Assembly (NCBI GenBank): GCA_030668755.1
Contig: DAOVEW010000002.1
Location: 1-16,677, forward strand
Length of the DNA stretch: 16,677 nt
From: Bacillota bacterium
GTDB taxonomy: Bacteria; Armatimonadota; Hebobacteria; Hebobacterales; Hebobacteraceae
Reading direction: 5' to 3'
Shown here piece by piece: positions 10,532-16,677 of this stretch. Both the position numbers and the translations under genes were made by a program. The notes under the pieces were generated by a model. The model did no database searches, was not told the DNA's origin, and was given only the letters and a program-made list of their open reading frames with translations. How positions within the stretch are numbered: position 1 is the first letter of the stretch; every line of letters starts with the position of its first letter.

Positions 10532-11524
10532 TTGCGCCGTCAAGAGCAGGGCGCAAAGCGAGAAGGCTCAGGCGACGAGCAGCGGCCGGCGGTGCGGGAG
10601 GTCGGGCTCGCGCTGCTCTACCTCGGACTGGGGCTGGTGAGCGGGCTGGTGTGGGCACGGCTGGCGAATCTGGGGGAGCTTCCCAAATGGCACCTCGACA
10701 TGATATTGGGGAGGGCGCCGGCCCCGAACCAGTACCGGCCGCTCACGCCGTGGCTGGCGCAAGTGGTGATCTACGCGCTGCCGAGCCACAACCTCTTCAC
10801 GGCCTATATGCTGGTGCGGTCAGTCGTGACGGGGGTCACGCTCTACCTGTTCGATCGCTACATGCGGGTGTGGTTCTCGCCCGGTGCGGCCGCGGCGGGC
10901 GCGCTGTGTCTGGCCGCCATTCTGCCGTTCACGTACCTGCATGTCGTGCAGGAGAGCGACCCGATCAATCTCCTGGCCTTCGTGCTGGCGTTCTGGGCGC
11001 TGGCGCGAGGCCGGGACCTGCTGCTCCTGCCGCTCGTGCTGGTGGGCACGTTGAACCGCGAGACGACGGCGATGATCCCGGCGGTGTACCTCTTCGCGCG
11101 CCTGGGGCGACGACCGATTGCCGAGGTCGTCTGGAAGACGGCGGCCCTGGCAGCTGCATGGGCGGCCGTCTATCTGCCGATGGTCTGGGTGCTCTACGGC
11201 AGGCGGGAGTACTACTGTGATGTAGTGATGTGGCGCCTGAATGTGGAGTCGTGGGCGCCGACCGCGCAGGTTCTGCTGTTGTTCGGGGTGATGTGGGTGC
11301 TGGCCTTTGCCGTGGCGAGACGGGGGCCGCTGTTGCTGCGGCGAGCGCTCTGGCTGCTTCCGCCGTTCGTGATTCTGCACTACGTGGTGGCGATGGTGAG
11401 GGAGGTGCGGTTGTTCCTGCCGTTCGCCCCCGTGGTTATCCCTCTTGCCTGGTGGGTGTTGCTCCCTGAGACGAGGCTGAAGGGCGGAGAGAACGAAGGG
11501 CGACGGCAGCCGGGCCGTATGTGA
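10532..11524 (+). CDS. Polytopic membrane protein, GT-C glycosyltransferase-like
   Basis: 330 residues with about eight to ten membrane helices. TTG start at 10532, set by a strong AGGAGGAGA immediately upstream; no ATG would give a better N-terminus. After a charged N-tail and first helix there is a large loop with PNQYRPLTPWL (65-75), then QESDPINL (140-147), LNRETTAMIP (174-183) and REVRLFLPFAPVVIPL (290-305). The NRET and REVR motifs, acidic residues in the early loops and overall helix pattern resemble undefined GT-C membrane proteins related to lipid-linked sugar transferases. There is no clear DxD/ExD catalytic motif, so activity is an inference and it might have another membrane role. 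It is in an operon with the MFS gene, which suggests a shared function in envelope sugar or lipid handling. Confidence 0.8.
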   Translation: MRRQEQGAKREGSGDEQRPAVREVGLALLYLGLGLVSGLVWARLANLGELPKWHLDMILGRAPAPNQYRPLTPWLAQVVIYALPSHNLFTAYMLVRSVVTGVTLYLFDRYMRVWFSPGAAAAGALCLAAILPFTYLHVVQESDPINLLAFVLAFWALARGRDLLLLPLVLVGTLNRETTAMIPAVYLFARLGRRPIAEVVWKTAALAAAWAAVYLPMVWVLYGRREYYCDVVMWRLNVESWAPTAQVLLLFGVMWVLAFAVARRGPLLLRRALWLLPPFVILHYVVAMVREVRLFLPFAPVVIPLAWWVLLPETRLKGGENEGRRQPGRM

Positions 11525-11968
11525 CCTTTTCTTCACATTTCTCCGGGGCTGGCAGCAAGGCGTCCCTCTCCGCGTCGAATCATTGAGGAGATGTTGGATT
11601 TCCGCTCAACAGGGCAGGTGGATGTTCGATTTGCTGGATATGGCCGCTCTTCGGATGTGGTAACGCTGGACGCAGATGAGGCAAGCGGAACTTAGAGTGT
11701 GTGGTTGACTGATGAGGGGAAGTCTCTGGAAGCGACAGCCGGCGCAGGAACGAGGCCGGCGGCTCCAGGACATGGCGTGGTCCGCCGATAGTGTTGAAGA
11801 GGGAGGGGTCTCGGACCGTTGGGGAAGCCCGGCGATGGCGAGCGGGAGGTCGAATCCTCCCGGCCGGGAGGATGGCTCATCCGGCGGGCCGCTTATCGCC
11901 GCAGAGACCCCGTGCACCCGTCCGGTGGGCGGGCGGAGAAAATGGAAGCATACAGAGGAGGTAGGACG
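11525..11968 (+). other. Intergenic region upstream of the small membrane protein
   Basis: 444 bp without a convincing gene. A frame from 11712 to 11972 exists but has no ribosome site and low-complexity composition. The region is structured, with a direct GTTGAAG/GGTCTCGG stretch (about 11792-11817) and an exact palindrome at 11854-11873. It probably holds the promoter and a long leader for the gene at 11969. TTGACT at 11705-11710 could be a -35 element, but I see no matching -10. Confidence 0.4.
11854..11873. repeat. 20-bp perfect palindrome in the leader of the small membrane protein
   Basis: Bases 11854-11873 (ATCCTCCCGGCCGGGAGGAT) are a perfect self-complement with no spacer. An overlapping alternative hairpin, GGGAGG (11844-11849) with CCTCCC (11856-11861), would compete with it. 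This could be a dimeric-protein operator or an RNA switch. Confidence 0.7.
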
Positions 11969-12319
11969 GTGAACAAGTCGGTGCCTACGTTGTTGGGGAT
12001 CATCATCATCTTGCTGGTCGTGGTGCTTGTGGTCCTGGTCTACGACTACAAGCTGACCTCCGGACTGGCGACTGGTCGGGTTGCTGGAACCGTCGGCGGG
12101 CAGTTGCTGACCGGTGTTCAGCAGCCGGGGGAGGATATCGGGATCGGAGAGGTGCTTGAGGGGCGAGCTCAGCCGGATGCTGTGCCCTCTCCGGTACAGA
12201 CGCAGACGCGCGGGGCTGAGCTGAGTCGCGAGGCGAAAGAACGTCGCGCCGCCCGCGAACAGGGCGAGACGCCGCAGGGCGAGCTGCGCGAGGCAGTGCC
12301 GCCGCCCTCTGGGCCCTAG
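11969..12319 (+). CDS. Small single-span membrane protein, function unknown
   Basis: 116 residues. GTG 11969 is the start because AGGAGGT sits six bases upstream, the best such site here; an ATG at 11942 would add nine residues without a comparable site. Residues 7-25 (TLLGIIIILLVVVLVVLVY) form one uninterrupted membrane helix. A short cytoplasmic N-terminus (MNKSVP) and the following YDYKLTSG suggest an N-in, C-out or signal-anchor topology. The C-terminal 90 residues are Gly/Gln/Pro/Glu-rich and probably disordered, with a charged segment SREAKERRAAREQGE. There is no lipobox and no known domain. It is followed by a clear terminator, so it is a one-gene transcript. I do not recognise the family. 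Confidence 0.8.
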   Translation: MNKSVPTLLGIIIILLVVVLVVLVYDYKLTSGLATGRVAGTVGGQLLTGVQQPGEDIGIGEVLEGRAQPDAVPSPVQTQTRGAELSREAKERRAAREQGETPQGELREAVPPPSGP

Positions 12320-12351
12320 CGACAGCCCTGACGGGCCAGGAAGTCCCTAGT

Positions 12352-12381
12352 GAAAGGATCCGGCGCGAGCCGGGTCCTTTC
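12352..12381 (+). terminator. Intrinsic terminator of the small membrane protein
   Basis: Arms 12352-12364 and 12369-12381 (GAAAGGATCCGGC with GCCGGGTCCTTTC) pair over 13 bp with one G-T wobble around a GCGA (GNRA) tetraloop. The 3' arm ends in CCTTTCCT. It begins 33 bases after the stop at 12319. Confidence 0.8.
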
Positions 12382-12495
12382 CTGTGGCCGGGAGGGCAGT
12401 GGCAGCGGTGCTTGAGGCTGACGACCGGTGGTTGTCTGGAAGGGGAGAGGAAAGGGCAGGATAGCCGAGCATCGTCGAGGTGCCAAAATGCGACA

Positions 12496-12530
12496 GCCCT
12501 GCGGTGAAGCGTTTCCTCCCCCCGCAGGGC
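12496..12530. repeat. Hairpin preceding prepilin-leader copy 1
   Basis: Arms GCCCTGCGG (12496-12504) and CCGCAGGGC (12522-12530) are perfect complements with a 17-base loop. It lies just upstream of prepilin-leader copy 1; copy 2 has a comparable hairpin on its own 5' side. Confidence 0.55.
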
Positions 12531-12536
12531 CATCTA

Positions 12537-12587
12537 GGCGGTTTGTTCACGATGATCGAGCTGTTGGTGGTAACCGCCGAGGATATA
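12537..12587 (+). pseudogene. Prepilin cleavage-segment copy 1 (relic or RNA element)
   Basis: The plus strand reads GGLFTMIELLVVTAEDIY, matching the prepilin GFTLIELLVVIA segment, then loses the hydrophobic helix at once. Bases 12553-12573 are identical over 21 positions, wobble bases included, to the intact prepilin gene (14377-14357 on the minus strand). The match sits in the loop of an inverted repeat GGCGGTT (12537-12543) / AACCGCC (12572-12578). An open frame from GTG 12480 passes through it but has no ribosome site, and a terminator follows. Either a recombination scar from a prepilin gene or a transcribed element. Confidence 0.65.
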
Positions 12588-12597
12588 TACCACATCT

Positions 12598-12620
12598 CAC
12601 CCCGAAACCGGGGTGCTTTT
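12598..12620 (+). terminator. Intrinsic terminator after prepilin-leader copy 1
   Basis: Arms CACCCCG (12598-12604) and CGGGGTG (12609-12615) with loop AAAC, followed by CTTTTCTG. This is a classical hairpin plus T tract in the plus direction although no intact gene precedes it, which suggests that a short RNA ends here. Confidence 0.75.
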
Positions 12621-12742
12621 CTGTCCACAAGACGGGAGAGCGTGATGACATTGGGTGAAATCGCGCTCCACCGGGACGAAGGTCAGGGCAAAGAGCACAG
12701 CCGGCAAGAGAATCACAGAAGTTTACCCGCTTGTTCATAGTT

Positions 12743-12770
12743 CTGACACGAACACAGGGCACTCTATAGA
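12743..12770 (+). promoter_or_regulatory. Possible sigma-70-like promoter facing prepilin-leader copy 2
   Basis: CTGACA (12743-12748; five of six to TTGACA), 16-base spacer, TATAGA (12765-12770; four of six to TATAAT). Transcription would start near 12777, at the first bases of the antisense strand of prepilin-leader copy 2. Match quality is moderate. Confidence 0.35.
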
Positions 12771-12803
12771 CGAAACCACCAACAGCTCGATGAGGGCGAA
12801 TCT
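12765..12803 (-). pseudogene. Prepilin cleavage-segment copy 2 (opposite strand)
   Basis: The minus strand reads RRFALIELLVVSS, the prepilin segment again, and then leaves homology. The 17 bases ATCGAGCTGTTGGTGGT (12791-12775) are identical to the intact gene (14375-14359) and to copy 1. With two mismatches the match extends to 26 bases. The surrounding frame (12735-13067) has no convincing start or downstream pilin. On the 5' side, as in copy 1, there is a strong hairpin (12809-12836). Confidence 0.65.
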
Positions 12804-12808
12804 CCTTG

Positions 12809-12836
12809 GACCGCCTGGTGCCGCCGCCAGGCGGTC
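12809..12836. repeat. Hairpin beside prepilin-leader copy 2
   Basis: Arms GACCGCCTGG (12809-12818) and CCAGGCGGTC (12827-12836) are perfect complements over 10 bp with an 8-base loop. In the plus direction it would form the 3' structure of a short RNA starting near 12777. No T tract follows. Confidence 0.6.
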
Positions 12837-12941
12837 TCGCCGTTGTTCGGGGGACCGTGCAGGACGAGCTGCCGCGGCGCGGGTAACTACAAGACCGCCT
12901 TCGCGCGTTGGCGGAGAGGAACGAGTAAGCTGGCCGCCGCG

Positions 12942-13168
12942 GTGCTGGATGAGTCTCAGATGGCGGCGGTGCTCTGGCTCGACCGCCGATACCTCGTCCA
13001 AGTCGTCCGGAAGGCCGTCGGCCTGCGGTCCCTGGCCGATGACTCCGAGGAGGCGTTTAGCTATCACACCGCCGAGCCTTGCCTTTCTTCCTGGGCATGT
13101 TGGTGGGCAGCGCCCTGATCGGTCTACTTCAGTCTGTCGTGCTTCGGGCGCTCGGGCTGACTGCGTAG
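12942..13168 (+). pseudogene. Frameshifted C-terminal part of an unrecognised membrane protein
   Basis: One frame reads VLDESQMAAVLWLDRRYLVQVVRKAVGLRSLADDSEEAFSYHTAEP. A second frame continues from 13079 as LPFFLGMLVGSALIGLLQSVVLRALGLTA and stops at TAG 13166. The second part is a convincing membrane helix, and joining the two needs one extra base in the CCTTG of 13077-13081. The first frame continues only to CLSSWACWWAAP and stops. The start is unclear (GTG 12942 or ATG 12960), and no ribosome site is seen. A single-base deletion in a decaying gene or a sequencing error would both explain it. Family not recognised. Confidence 0.45.
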
Positions 13169-13221
13169 TTTCCCCTCTCGGACAGTCATCCGGGCCCTGC
13201 TGCAGATCTGGGCGGTAAGAG

Positions 13222-13259
13222 AAAAATCAGGCGGAGCGCCCGTCTGGGCGCTCCGCCTG
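13222..13259 (-). terminator. Strong intrinsic terminator of the prepilin-like gene
   Basis: Arms 13228-13241 and 13246-13259 (CAGGCGGAGCGCCC with GGGCGCTCCGCCTG) pair over 14 bp around a four-base loop. On the minus strand they are followed by ATTTTTC (13227-13221). It lies 88 bases 3' of the stop at 13347. Confidence 0.92.
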
Positions 13260-13292
13260 CACGTCTGATCTCCGTGCTGGGATCAGTTGTAG

Positions 13293-13336
13293 GCGGCGGA
13301 CATCTCACCGCCGCAACCTGGCTTGCAGCGCCAGGT
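13293..13336 (-). other. Tandem hairpins in the 3' region of the prepilin-like gene
   Basis: Two perfect stems precede the terminator in the minus direction: ACCTGGC (13316-13322) / GCCAGGT (13330-13336), and GCGGCGG (13293-13299) / CCGCCGC (13308-13314). Together with the terminator they give three consecutive structures in the 3' untranslated region, which might stabilise the mRNA against 3' exonucleases. Confidence 0.5.
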
Positions 13337-13346
13337 CAGGGCCGAC

Positions 13347-14408
13347 CTAGTAGATGAAGATCGCGTCCGGGTAGCAGGGCAGCACCCAAGAGGCGTCTGC
13401 GGAGGTCGGGCCCCAAGTGCTGACGCCCTGGTAGTCGCCCTCGGCGATCCTGGTGATCAGCCTTTCAGAGTTTGTCCAGGTAGCGTGGCCATCGAGGAAG
13501 CCGATGTTCACGCCACCGAGGTGTCTGGCGTACGGCCTGCGCAACTCCGGATTCCTCAGGAAGGATCCGTCGTTGGGCGCGTAGATGTACAGGCCGCAGT
13601 CCGCGGCCCACGTGCAGATCTCCCAGTCGGTCCAGCCACAGGTGGCGCTGCACTCGAGGGTGCAGAGGTCGGGGTACGCCATCGTGCCCACGTTGTTGTC
13701 CTCGGAGGAAACGCCGGCGTCCGAGCAGATGATGTAGTTGACGGGATCCTGGACCTCGACTAGCTTGAGCCCAGGCGCCCACTGCGTCCCGATGGTCTGG
13801 ATGAACGCCTTGTTGGCCACAGCTCCTTGGACGGAGCCGAGCTCGGGCACGGCCATTATCCCCTGGCCGAGCGAGTCGGTGACGTCGCCGCCCCAACCGG
13901 GCGGCCAGGACCAGAAGCACGGGCCGCCGATCATGTTGTCGCCTGCGATGGTTCCCCACTGGCCCTCATAGCTCTTGAGGTGGCCGAGCCAGTCCGGTCC
14001 GGGGACGATCCAGGTCGCACCCCCTCCGACTTTCGCGCTCGGACACTGCCACACATCGCGATTCTTGATGTACTCGTCAAAGATGACTGCCCAGCGGAGG
14101 TACGGATTGGACTGGAAGCAACACCAGGCATCCGATTCCTCGGGTGGGTCTGAGCCACCGGGTGCGGTCGCGAAGTACGCGCGCGCCTCCTCACGGTGCT
14201 CCGTCGGAGGCAGCGTGTCGTTGTTGTCCGCAAGGTACATCTGAATGGCCAGCGCAATGTTCTTGACGTTCGATAGACAGACTGCTTTGCGAGCCGATTC
14301 GCGCGCTCGCGCGAAGACCGGAAAGACCATAGCGGCGAGGATACCGATGATCGCGATTACCACCAACAGCTCGATCAGGGTGAACCCTCTTCGCCGTTGC
14401 GTCATCAT
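13347..14408 (-). CDS. Prepilin-like protein, type IV cleavage motif and H-X9-DG C-terminus
   Basis: 353 residues. A basic leader MMTQRRRG (1-8) precedes cleavage after G8 and mature F9; E13 is the conserved Glu at mature position +5, and residues 10-30 form the pilin helix. The segment continues FARARESARKAVCLSNVKNIALAIQMYLADNNDTLPP, typical of the large pseudopilin-like families of Armatimonadota and Planctomycetes-like bacteria. H296 with D306-G307 (HLGGVNIGFLDG) is the family's C-terminal motif. Such proteins are processed by prepilin peptidase and exported or assembled at the membrane; exact role is unknown. The middle region is rich in Trp and Cys (WCCF, CTLECSATCG, ICTWAADCG), suggesting disulfides. 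Start ATG 14408 has AGGAGG seven bases upstream; a second ATG follows directly. An upstream in-frame GTG at 14507 is less likely. It has its own strong terminator. Confidence 0.95.
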   Translation of the reverse strand: MMTQRRRGFTLIELLVVIAIIGILAAMVFPVFARARESARKAVCLSNVKNIALAIQMYLADNNDTLPPTEHREEARAYFATAPGGSDPPEESDAWCCFQSNPYLRWAVIFDEYIKNRDVWQCPSAKVGGGATWIVPGPDWLGHLKSYEGQWGTIAGDNMIGGPCFWSWPPGWGGDVTDSLGQGIMAVPELGSVQGAVANKAFIQTIGTQWAPGLKLVEVQDPVNYIICSDAGVSSEDNNVGTMAYPDLCTLECSATCGWTDWEICTWAADCGLYIYAPNDGSFLRNPELRRPYARHLGGVNIGFLDGHATWTNSERLITRIAEGDYQGVSTWGPTSADASWVLPCYPDAIFIY

Positions 14409-14503
14409 GTGAAGACCTCCTGCTTGCAGGTAATTGGCCACCAGCTCCAACGATAGGGCCGCTCGTTCCACGTCGCTCCACGAGCCACCGCGGCGGGTTC
14501 GGC

Positions 14504-14514
14504 TCACCTCCTTT
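14504..14514 (-). promoter_or_regulatory. Perfect Shine-Dalgarno-like run without an obvious gene
   Basis: The minus strand reads AAAGGAGGTGA, full-length complementarity to the anti-Shine-Dalgarno end of 16S rRNA. No ATG/GTG/TTG lies at the usual distance. The GTG at 14507 sits inside the motif and would add 33 residues, in frame, to the prepilin-like protein. It may serve as a ribosome standby site or mark a lost leader peptide. Confidence 0.4.
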
Positions 14515-14884
14515 CCTGCTCACCCCGTTCGCCCGGCCGGACCTGCCCAAGGGCGCGGGGATGGGCGCTACTGCGGCCCGGTGCCCCCGCGGTGTTTGGG
14601 CGAGCCGGCAAACTGGGAGTTAGACGGAGCACACAGCGTTCTGGTTGGATGCGCGGACGAGCGATGGGTTGTCACGTAATCGAGGGGGACAGCGCTTTGG
14701 CGAAGGCGAGCAAGGCCGCAGCGCGGCTGAAACGAGCCACGGTGGAAACCGGCCTCTGCGAAGCGATCCCACCGGGGTCCCCGCGCGAGCGACCGTGTCA
14801 CAGACTTCTTCCCCGGCGCGCCGCGAACACCCATCTGGTCCATGGTCCTTGCCGCGTGATCGGGTAACACCACTACCATAATGT

Positions 14885-14949: not shown

Positions 14950-15867
14950 ATGGAACGGTTTCCTCCCATTGCGGGACTAGGGATTGACGAGTCTGGGCAG
15001 ACCCGGCGATTCGACTACGGCCTGACGCCGACAGAACCGCTCCACGCGGATGTGACGCGCTCTGAAGGCGACACGCTCCTCACTGTCCACGCCCACGCGG
15101 GCATCGAGTTCAGCATTCTGCTCTCTGGTGCACAAGAGGCGCACTACGAGGACTTCGTCCGACCGCTTAGACCTGGAGACGTTTCGCTCTGCGCAACCTG
15201 GGAGCCCCACGGCTGGCGCAGCACTGCGCCGGATACGGAAGGCGTGGTGCTCATGTTCCTGCCGGATTTTCTGGGCGAGGAGACACTGGGAGACGCGTCG
15301 TGGCTTCAGCTCTTCGCGGTGCCGCCTGCCGAACGTCCGCAAGTGACGAGCGACGAGCTGCGGGAGAGCATGCTGGCGCTGGGCCGGGAGATGCAGCGGG
15401 AGATCCTGGAGAGACGGCCCGGGTGGGAGAGCGCAGTGCGGCTGGACCTATTGAGGGCGTTGCTGGCGCTGAAGCGCGAATGGAAGGTGCCTGCGCTGCC
15501 CAAGTCGCGAATTCGCGTGTCGGCGGGCAACTTGCCGAGGATCATGCCCGCACTCGTGCTGGTGCACACGAGGCCCGCGCGGCGGGTGACTGTGGAGGAG
15601 GCGGCGAAGGCATGTGGCCTCAGCCGCGCGCAGTTCTGCCTGACCTTCCACAATATTATCGGGATTAGCTTCGGACAGTTCTGTACGCGTTTCCGGCTGG
15701 CGTTGGTGGCGGCGATGCTGCTCTCGACGGACATGCCCATGAACGCCATTGCGCAGCGTACGGGGTTTGTGGACGCCAGCCATCTGCACCGTGTGTTTGT
15801 GAAGCGCTACGCATGCACACCCGGCCAGTATCGTATGCAGAACCAGGTGCAGACAAGCAGCGCCTAG
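14950..15867 (+). CDS. AraC-family transcriptional regulator with cupin sensor domain
   Basis: 305 residues. The N-terminal half has a cupin-like ligand-binding region (about 45-95: HAHAGIEFSILLSG...LRPGDVSLCATWEPHGWR). The C-terminal half has two helix-turn-helix units: about 212-233 (RVTVEEAAKACGLSRAQFCLTF) and about 262-283 (MPMNAIAQRTGFVDASHLHRVFVKRY), then TPGQYR. This matches the AraC/XylS signature. Members bind sugar or aromatic effectors and activate nearby operons. ATG 14950 is the start; the mRNA is probably leaderless. It is transcribed away from the prepilin-like gene and converges with the YdjC-like deacetylase, so either neighbour or itself might be its target. The effector is unknown. 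Confidence 0.93.
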   Translation: MERFPPIAGLGIDESGQTRRFDYGLTPTEPLHADVTRSEGDTLLTVHAHAGIEFSILLSGAQEAHYEDFVRPLRPGDVSLCATWEPHGWRSTAPDTEGVVLMFLPDFLGEETLGDASWLQLFAVPPAERPQVTSDELRESMLALGREMQREILERRPGWESAVRLDLLRALLALKREWKVPALPKSRIRVSAGNLPRIMPALVLVHTRPARRVTVEEAAKACGLSRAQFCLTFHNIIGISFGQFCTRFRLALVAAMLLSTDMPMNAIAQRTGFVDASHLHRVFVKRYACTPGQYRMQNQVQTSSA

Positions 15868-15979: not shown

Positions 15980-16677
15980 TCACGATAAGCAGTCCCGATA
16001 GGTGGTGAGAGTGATGCCGTTGTCGGAGATGGCGGCCGCGACCTGCGGACTGGTGAATGCGGCGAGCTCCTGCTCCCAGTGGTAGCCCCAGCGGAGCTGC
16101 GCGTCGATGCCGTCGTCAGCCCCCGGGTGACAGCAGATCTCGGTGAGACCACCATCGAGGTCTGCGAGCGTACCGACGAGCGATTGCTCGCTCCACGCGC
16201 CGGCCTCGCGGAAGCCGCGGAAGTCGTTGGCGGCCAGCAGCCCGTTTGCACTCACCATCTTTCTCCCAAGTCGACACAGCCCTCGCAGCGCGATTCCCTG
16301 GGCCGCGCGATGGATGCCTGCGCCGGTGCCGCGAGCGCGCGGTGAGCTCCGTGTCTGAGCTGGGTCGCGAAGCGCCCCGATGCCGTAGTCGGAGGCGAGG
16401 CGCACGACGATCGGCAGGATGCCGGGGAGCATGTGGAGGTGCTGGTGGCTGTCGAGATGAGAGTACGAGAGCCCCGACTGGCGTGCGCGCTCGATCTGCG
16501 CGCGCAGCTCGGTCTCGACCTCCTTGCTCCGGATGCCGCGCCGGAGGTAGCGCCTGAGGAAGGCACTCCAGCTCGGCAGAAAGCGGCCCGAGGAACCGAC
16601 CAGCGACCGGATGCGCTCGGGTGGTGAGAGCGGCTGAGTCCCGGTGAGTGCGAGGTGTATGCCGAGATCGAGAGCGG
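15980..16677 (-). CDS. YdjC/ChbG-family carbohydrate deacetylase, 5'-truncated by window edge
   Basis: The frame is open from the right window edge (ALDLGIHLALTGTQPLSPPERIRSLVG...) to TGA at 15980, about 232 residues; the start lies outside the window. Key family features are seen: DLGIHLALTGTQPL near the left end of what is visible, the metal-binding SHLDSHQHLHMLPGI block around 16464-16420, and GLTEICCHPG further on. The N-terminal Asp pair that completes the metal site is outside the window. YdjC-like enzymes remove acetyl groups from chito-oligosaccharide or related amino sugars; some relatives (HpnK) act near hopanoid genes, but the SHLDSHQHLH form fits the general carbohydrate deacetylases. 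It is convergent with the AraC regulator; the two could share a sugar-related role. Substrate unknown. Confidence 0.87.
   Translation of the reverse strand, partial: ALDLGIHLALTGTQPLSPPERIRSLVGSSGRFLPSWSAFLRRYLRRGIRSKEVETELRAQIERARQSGLSYSHLDSHQHLHMLPGILPIVVRLASDYGIGALRDPAQTRSSPRARGTGAGIHRAAQGIALRGLCRLGRKMVSANGLLAANDFRGFREAGAWSEQSLVGTLADLDGGLTEICCHPGADDGIDAQLRWGYHWEQELAAFTSPQVAAAISDNGITLTTYRDCLS

Follow-up and report, generated by a model that had tools for sequence, protein, structure and literature searches.

Candidate trans-encoded small RNAs antisense to shared prepilin leader codons in Candidatus Hebobacteria

Two short units, A and B, were found in a stretch of 16,677 nucleotides, hereafter the window. 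It corresponds to contig C169 of genome G000, an assembly of 1.92 Mb in 411 contigs with a completeness of 55%. Both carry the antisense of prepilin leader codons. We propose that A and B are trans-encoded small RNAs that would base-pair within the coding region of many prepilin mRNAs, most likely silencing them, a reading to which we give a probability of about two in three. Conservation, structure, a preference for one strand, complementarity to prepilin leaders and a mostly synonymous drift of the core are all observed in the sequences. Taken together, this suggests that a single RNA family could govern a whole set of pilus genes through the most conserved part of their messages. A more far-reaching version, in which a multi-gene RNA family silences an entire family of pilus proteins at once through their shared sorting-signal codons and tracks the synonymous drift of these codons, is held tentatively and falls slightly short of even odds. 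The features of the window concerned are as follows.

11969 to 12316: small membrane-like protein VNKSVPTLLG..., which accompanies A at 4 of 7 loci.
12481 to 12595, minus strand: putative antisense RNA gene A, from promoter box to the tail past the second hairpin (111 bits with covariance model R1, for whose building this copy was among those used).
12492 to 12533, minus strand: second hairpin of A, with a conserved stem and 4 pairs changed on both sides.
12537 to 12543, minus strand: 3' stem arm AACCGCC (minus-strand reading).
12553 to 12571, minus strand: antisense core ACCACCAACAGCTCGATCA, in the loop, complementary to LIELLVV codons.
12572 to 12578, minus strand: 5' stem arm GGCGGTT, the likely RNA start.
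12584 to 12592, minus strand: extended -10-like box TGGTATATA, from the alignment, with TGGTAT kept in 7 of 7 copies.
12598 to 12615, plus strand: terminator-like hairpin from the terminator scan, in the upstream region of A and outside the unit.
12743 to 12770, plus strand: promoter-like CTGACA-16-TATAGA preceding B, found by eye and absent from the sigma-70 scan list.
12768 to 12845, plus strand: putative antisense RNA unit B, divergent from A, with antisense leader CAACAGCTCGATGAGGGCGAA at 12780-12800 and a hairpin at 12809-12836.
13347 to 14408, minus strand: intact prepilin gene (PF07963, DUF1559), the nearest presumed target.
14359 to 14384, minus strand: presumed pairing site in this prepilin, the opening Leu codon of the core lying 30 nt after the ATG.

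An earlier note on this DNA had drawn attention to an identity of 21 nucleotides between a stretch outside the prepilin gene and its leader, and the identity is indeed present: TGATCGAGCTGTTGGTGGTAA at 12553-12573 on the plus strand recurs in the leader of the intact prepilin gene on the minus strand. Two matches to the 22-mer, with 0 and 1 mismatch, occur in the window where shuffles predict 0.01, and a search of the host genome aligned the stretch with the prepilin leader over 33 nt at 91% identity (E 1.8e-6). The inverted repeat described around the core (GGCGGTT at 12537-12543, AACCGCC at 12572-12578), the hairpin upstream of it (GACAGCCCTGCGG at 12492-12504 and CCGCAGGGC at 12522-12530) and the absence of a pilin body when the sequence is read on from 12537-12620 were likewise found as described. 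A further leader copy at 12775-12800 on the minus strand belongs to the same kind of unit in inverse orientation, namely B.

Prepilins are numerous in the eight genomes of this family, with 15-63 matches to the prepilin N-terminal family PF07963 per genome at E<=0.1. From these genomes 100 stretches were sampled, 96 from the better-scoring part of the PF07963 list and 4, all in G001, among the R1 matches; 3 of the 100 yielded no prepilin under the rule applied (L142 holds an orphan unit, B_G001b, the prepilin of L140 is cut by masked letters and L139 contains something other than a prepilin). The addition of 6 local prepilins brought the leader set to 103, of which the analysis of unpaired positions and mismatches took the 81 with IELLVVIA. 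In 5 of 7 cases (G000, G001, G003, G005 and G006) at least one prepilin leader of the same genome matches the 20-nt core of A exactly; the closest leader differs at 1 position in G007 and at 2 in G002. Across the 17 units of this kind described below, the best prepilin duplex exceeded the best of 194 control windows in every case, a result that is partly circular as the core was used to find the units, and for each unit between 3 and 20 prepilins of the sample outscored the best control window. The duplexes of the G004 unit, O_G004, were scored against prepilins of G001 and G002, there being none of G004 in the sample. When A cores were compared with the prepilins of their own genome, the summed mean mismatch was 10.9 against an average of 14.7, with 0.6% of 5040 permutations as low, a statistic that was set aside as confounded by genome kinship (G003 with G006, G005 with G007).

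In the proposed mechanism, A and B would be transcribed away from each other and each RNA would expose about 20-25 nt antisense to the LIELL(VV) leader codons common to many prepilin genes. The core would be displayed in the loop of the 5' stem-loop in A, or in a 5' segment ahead of a GC-rich hairpin in B, and would bind numerous prepilin mRNAs in trans, about 30-50 nt into the coding region. Since this site lies inside the gene, a block of early translation or decay of the duplex would be expected rather than plain masking of the ribosome-binding site. Real antisense RNAs with another outcome share all this sequence evidence: the pairing might stabilise or activate the mRNA, time its translation at the membrane or guard against stray prepilin transcripts, and a site past the ribosome-binding site, 30 nt into the gene, does not assure masking of initiation. 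Yet no feature favours activation over silencing, and silencing is the commoner outcome when antisense RNAs pair within coding regions, so that another outcome appears unlikely, with a chance that still deserves weight.

The strand on which A is read decides between an antisense RNA and the opposite arrangement, a plus-strand RNA that mimics prepilin mRNA, as the earlier note suggested it might, and would titrate a regulator. A plus-strand reading can point to the sense copy of the leader and to the plus-strand hairpin at 12598-12615, which is present with CTTTTCTG. This terminator-like stretch, 12598-12620, sits upstream of the putative promoter of A and reads in the opposite direction. The scan that listed it gave 4 terminator-like sites in 3.1 kb against a mean of 2.0 in shuffles, and visual inspection showed a similar hairpin close to A in G003. 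On the minus strand, the A copies have a common order of TGGTAT, a stem of consensus GGCGGT, a core ACCACCAACAGCTCRATCA (with some variants), an arm ACCGC and a long hairpin AGCYCTG...CAGRGCTGT (minus-strand reading). TGGTAT is found in all seven copies and the hexamer after TGG lies 5-7 nt from the stem, a spacing that fits the expected distance to a start site, and we infer that the RNA starts there. The sigma-70 scan of 11500-14600 listed no promoter at A or B, nor the TGGTAT box; its sole site, 12486-12458 on the minus strand, lies just past A.

Folding also favours the minus strand. The consensus fold of five copies reached -30.3 kcal/mol on this strand against -21.9 on the plus strand, and the weaker plus-strand fold was set aside. 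Among 153 paired cells of the seven copies, 17 are G-U and 4 A-C on the minus strand, with the counts swapped on the plus strand, although the alignment was fitted to the minus-strand model and the comparison therefore leans towards that strand. Paired cells amount to 92.2% against 85.6% in shuffles, none of 500 shuffles being as high, and 5 pairs are changed on both sides against 2.6 in shuffles (20 of 500 as high). The core is predicted to be unpaired with probabilities of 0.62-0.83 against 0.28-0.39 for the remainder of A, and this holds in all seven copies; A of G007 has an altered core (CACCAACTC) and one broken stem pair. The 3' hairpins of the units are strong, and the tails beyond them look U-poor by eye in most copies. 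Unit A is thus most likely read on the minus strand, as judged from its sequence, and a plus-strand mimic, which has the conserved TGGTAT box, the fold and the G-U pattern against it, is very unlikely. The earlier note was right in kind in seeing a short self-contained RNA unit with the leader segment only; that the parts named there make up a single plus-strand unit is not supported.

The antisense reading of A gains from its distribution. When 61 genomes (the window's own and 60 relatives) were searched with blastn, ordinary prepilin leaders were recovered along with matches in same-family genomes that extend beyond the leader into the surroundings, over 40 nt in G006 and about 100 nt in G002. 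Covariance models were then built from 5 copies (R1) and from all 7 (R2), their E-values being rough as those of home-made models. R1 recovered its 5 copies and 2 new ones, in G001 (84.9 bits, E 3.7e-27) and G007 (73.9 bits, E 5.6e-23), and in 14 genomes of the class the score next below the A copies was 28.5 bits. One strong copy each is therefore present in 7 of the 8 genomes of this Armatimonadota family (Candidatus Hebobacteria), and none was found with the covariance model in G004, which is 74% complete. Under the stricter filters of Infernal, R2 placed the seven copies at 93-107 bits in 291 genomes of the phylum, where the next score was 33.3 and no other copy was found at a comparable score. 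A pattern scan of 84,980 species, among which records very close to the window's own genome may be absent, gave 6 matches, 4 named Candidatus Hebobacteria or Hebobacterum and 2 Armatimonadetes or Armatimonadota bacterium. Between G003 and G006 the A element is 82% identical against 37-54% in adjoining blocks, while between G005 and G007 its 79% falls within the range of the flanking DNA (70-92%). Rfam 15 gave three weak matches in 11500-14700 of the window, none above the gathering score, and no match in nine loci.

The earlier note, which allowed that the stretch might be a remnant, had asked whether its parts recur together, and hairpin and core were indeed found together in relatives' genomes, along with the promoter box. 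Leader fragments left by decayed prepilin genes would be easily supplied, as prepilins are both numerous and nearby. However, hairpins, core and promoter box are common to different genera, the A element of G003 and G006 forms a conservation island, and 0 of 17 units go on into the pilin body (IAIIGILAAM). A scar is largely refuted by these shared flanks and is highly improbable.

The 17 units comprise at least one in each of the 8 genomes (G000 2, G001 4, G002 2, G003 1, G004 1, G005 2, G006 1, G007 4). B of the window is shorter than A and has a hairpin GACCGCC...GGCGGTC, and its homologs adjoin A divergently in G001 and G002. A model from six B-type units, R3, found three units outside its training set, in G005 C150 (57.1 bits), G007 C99 (51.1 bits) and G001 at 1364454 (43.3 bits), and a fourth in G007 C92 (36.5 bits). 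Since an intact prepilin outside the family (G266) reaches 44.5 bits, above the weakest of the three, the units at G001 1364454 and G007 C92 were distinguished from prepilins by reading their sequence and not by score. As for A or B outside the family, the 28 loci read among the matches listed were all prepilin leaders continuing into the hydrophobic stretch of the protein, and such candidates were rejected. O_G004 has TTGACA-17-TAGAAT ahead of its core (by eye). A loosely shared block TTCAYA...YGACACAG precedes several B units (12700-12770 in the window; L061, L065, L241 and L254) and might act as a shared promoter or activator site. The DNA is GC-rich, and each of the 17 units is overlapped on one strand or the other by open frames of 67-359 aa, among them a 359-aa frame on the opposite strand that extends into A of G005, and open reading frames were dropped as a sign of intergenic position.

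The paired arrangement could also be read at the level of DNA, as a small mobile element or a recombination site that exchanges prepilin segments. The cores of A and B form a 26-nt inverted repeat in the window, 203 nt apart, they are also inverted in G001 and G002, and several B units occur in G001 and G007. On the other hand A is single-copy in each genome with related neighbourhoods, and G-U pairs matter only in RNA, which leaves a DNA element with a very slight chance.

In the prepilin frame the cores read LIEL in 16 of 17 units and MIEL in one, A of the window; the GAG codon is kept in all 17, and the codon after this motif is Leu in 14. Variant codons of LIEL are synonymous in 4 of 5 cases against 11 of 36 expected under random change. 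A codon bias at the Ile of LIE was set aside as evidence because ATT there is also seen outside the family. A short LIELLVV peptide encoded on the plus strand is barely credible: translation of the sense strand predicts the same mostly synonymous changes, but the residues on either side of LIEL are not conserved among the 17 units, the spacing from core to TGGTAT varies by frame-shifting lengths, and the plus-strand ORF at 12480-12737 has no Pfam match. For the antisense RNAs, a simple reading of the drift is that they would have to pair with mRNAs that differ at synonymous sites.

With respect to the class of RNA, all 17 units are separate putative genes and no prepilin body lies opposite any of them, as expected of trans-encoded RNAs. 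The seed complementary to mRNAs is predicted to be accessible (unpaired in 7 of 7 copies of A, with favourable pairing energies in 17 of 17 units). At a distance of 750 nt from the prepilin gene, A is not encoded opposite this target as a cis-antisense RNA would be. Hfq was not found above cut-off in any of the 8 family genomes, which are incomplete, with one weak match in G006, by a search whose control gave a signal for 5 of 14 known genomes. A and B may instead depend on extended pairing or on a different partner.

Concerning the neighbourhood, A lies between a prepilin and the small membrane-like protein VNKS(V/I)PT in G000, G003 and G006. In G002 the small protein is near A with no prepilin seen on the contig, and in G001, G005 and G007 a prepilin is near A without the small protein, which in the window (11969-12316) has no Pfam match. 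A strong terminator hairpin that reads on the minus strand follows the prepilin gene at 13228-13259, where Rfam gives a match to a trypanosome snoRNA below gathering. Beside the prepilin are an AraC-type regulator with HTH_18 (14950-15864) and a YdjC-like protein (15983-16675). In G003 and G006, stretches common to both between A and the prepilin (L064 4600-5270 and L063 3795-4460) hold promoter-like and hairpin sequences, for example GTTGACA and TGGGTATAATACT, and are possibly a further small RNA.

We know of no mechanism for set-wise control of the 15-63 prepilins per genome in this family. The class Candidatus Hebobacteria has been described in a paper whose main text makes no use of the words pili, pilus, pilin, small RNA or noncoding (PMC10290634). 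If the proposal is true, an RNA aimed at widespread sorting-signal codons would be a simple means of controlling a whole paralogous family, and a constraint at the protein level would double as an RNA address.

Small RNAs are already linked to pili in other bacteria. FasX is a trans-acting small RNA on Gram-positive pili, and to our knowledge neither FasX nor the pneumococcal pilus-1 small RNA is aimed at prepilin leader codons. The latter is likewise reported to act in trans on a Gram-positive pilus (PMC8465756). Both resemble the proposed A and B RNAs as small RNAs affecting pilus expression, in another type of pilus and another phylum. In Synechocystis, the antisense RNA PilR is reported to lower pilA11 mRNA and protein; it is antisense to prepilin sequence as A and B are, but lies opposite its single target, whereas A and B would be separate genes with a core that fits many prepilins (PMC5924778). 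In the same way, the pilE antisense RNA of Neisseria meningitidis concerns a type IV pilin and is reportedly tied to antigenic variation; it lies in the pilin locus, while A and B would be intergenic genes with their own promoter-like box (PMC4402397).

In the open-access literature searched, no small RNA directed at leader codons common to many prepilins was found. Among enterobacterial small RNAs, RybB uses one seed for many mRNAs and MicC pairs with ompD in its coding region. A and B would resemble them in having one short seed with many targets or a coding-region site. They differ in belonging to genomes in which Hfq was not found above cut-off, and in a putative seed that is antisense to the codons of a protein-sorting motif and shows long, near-perfect complementarity.
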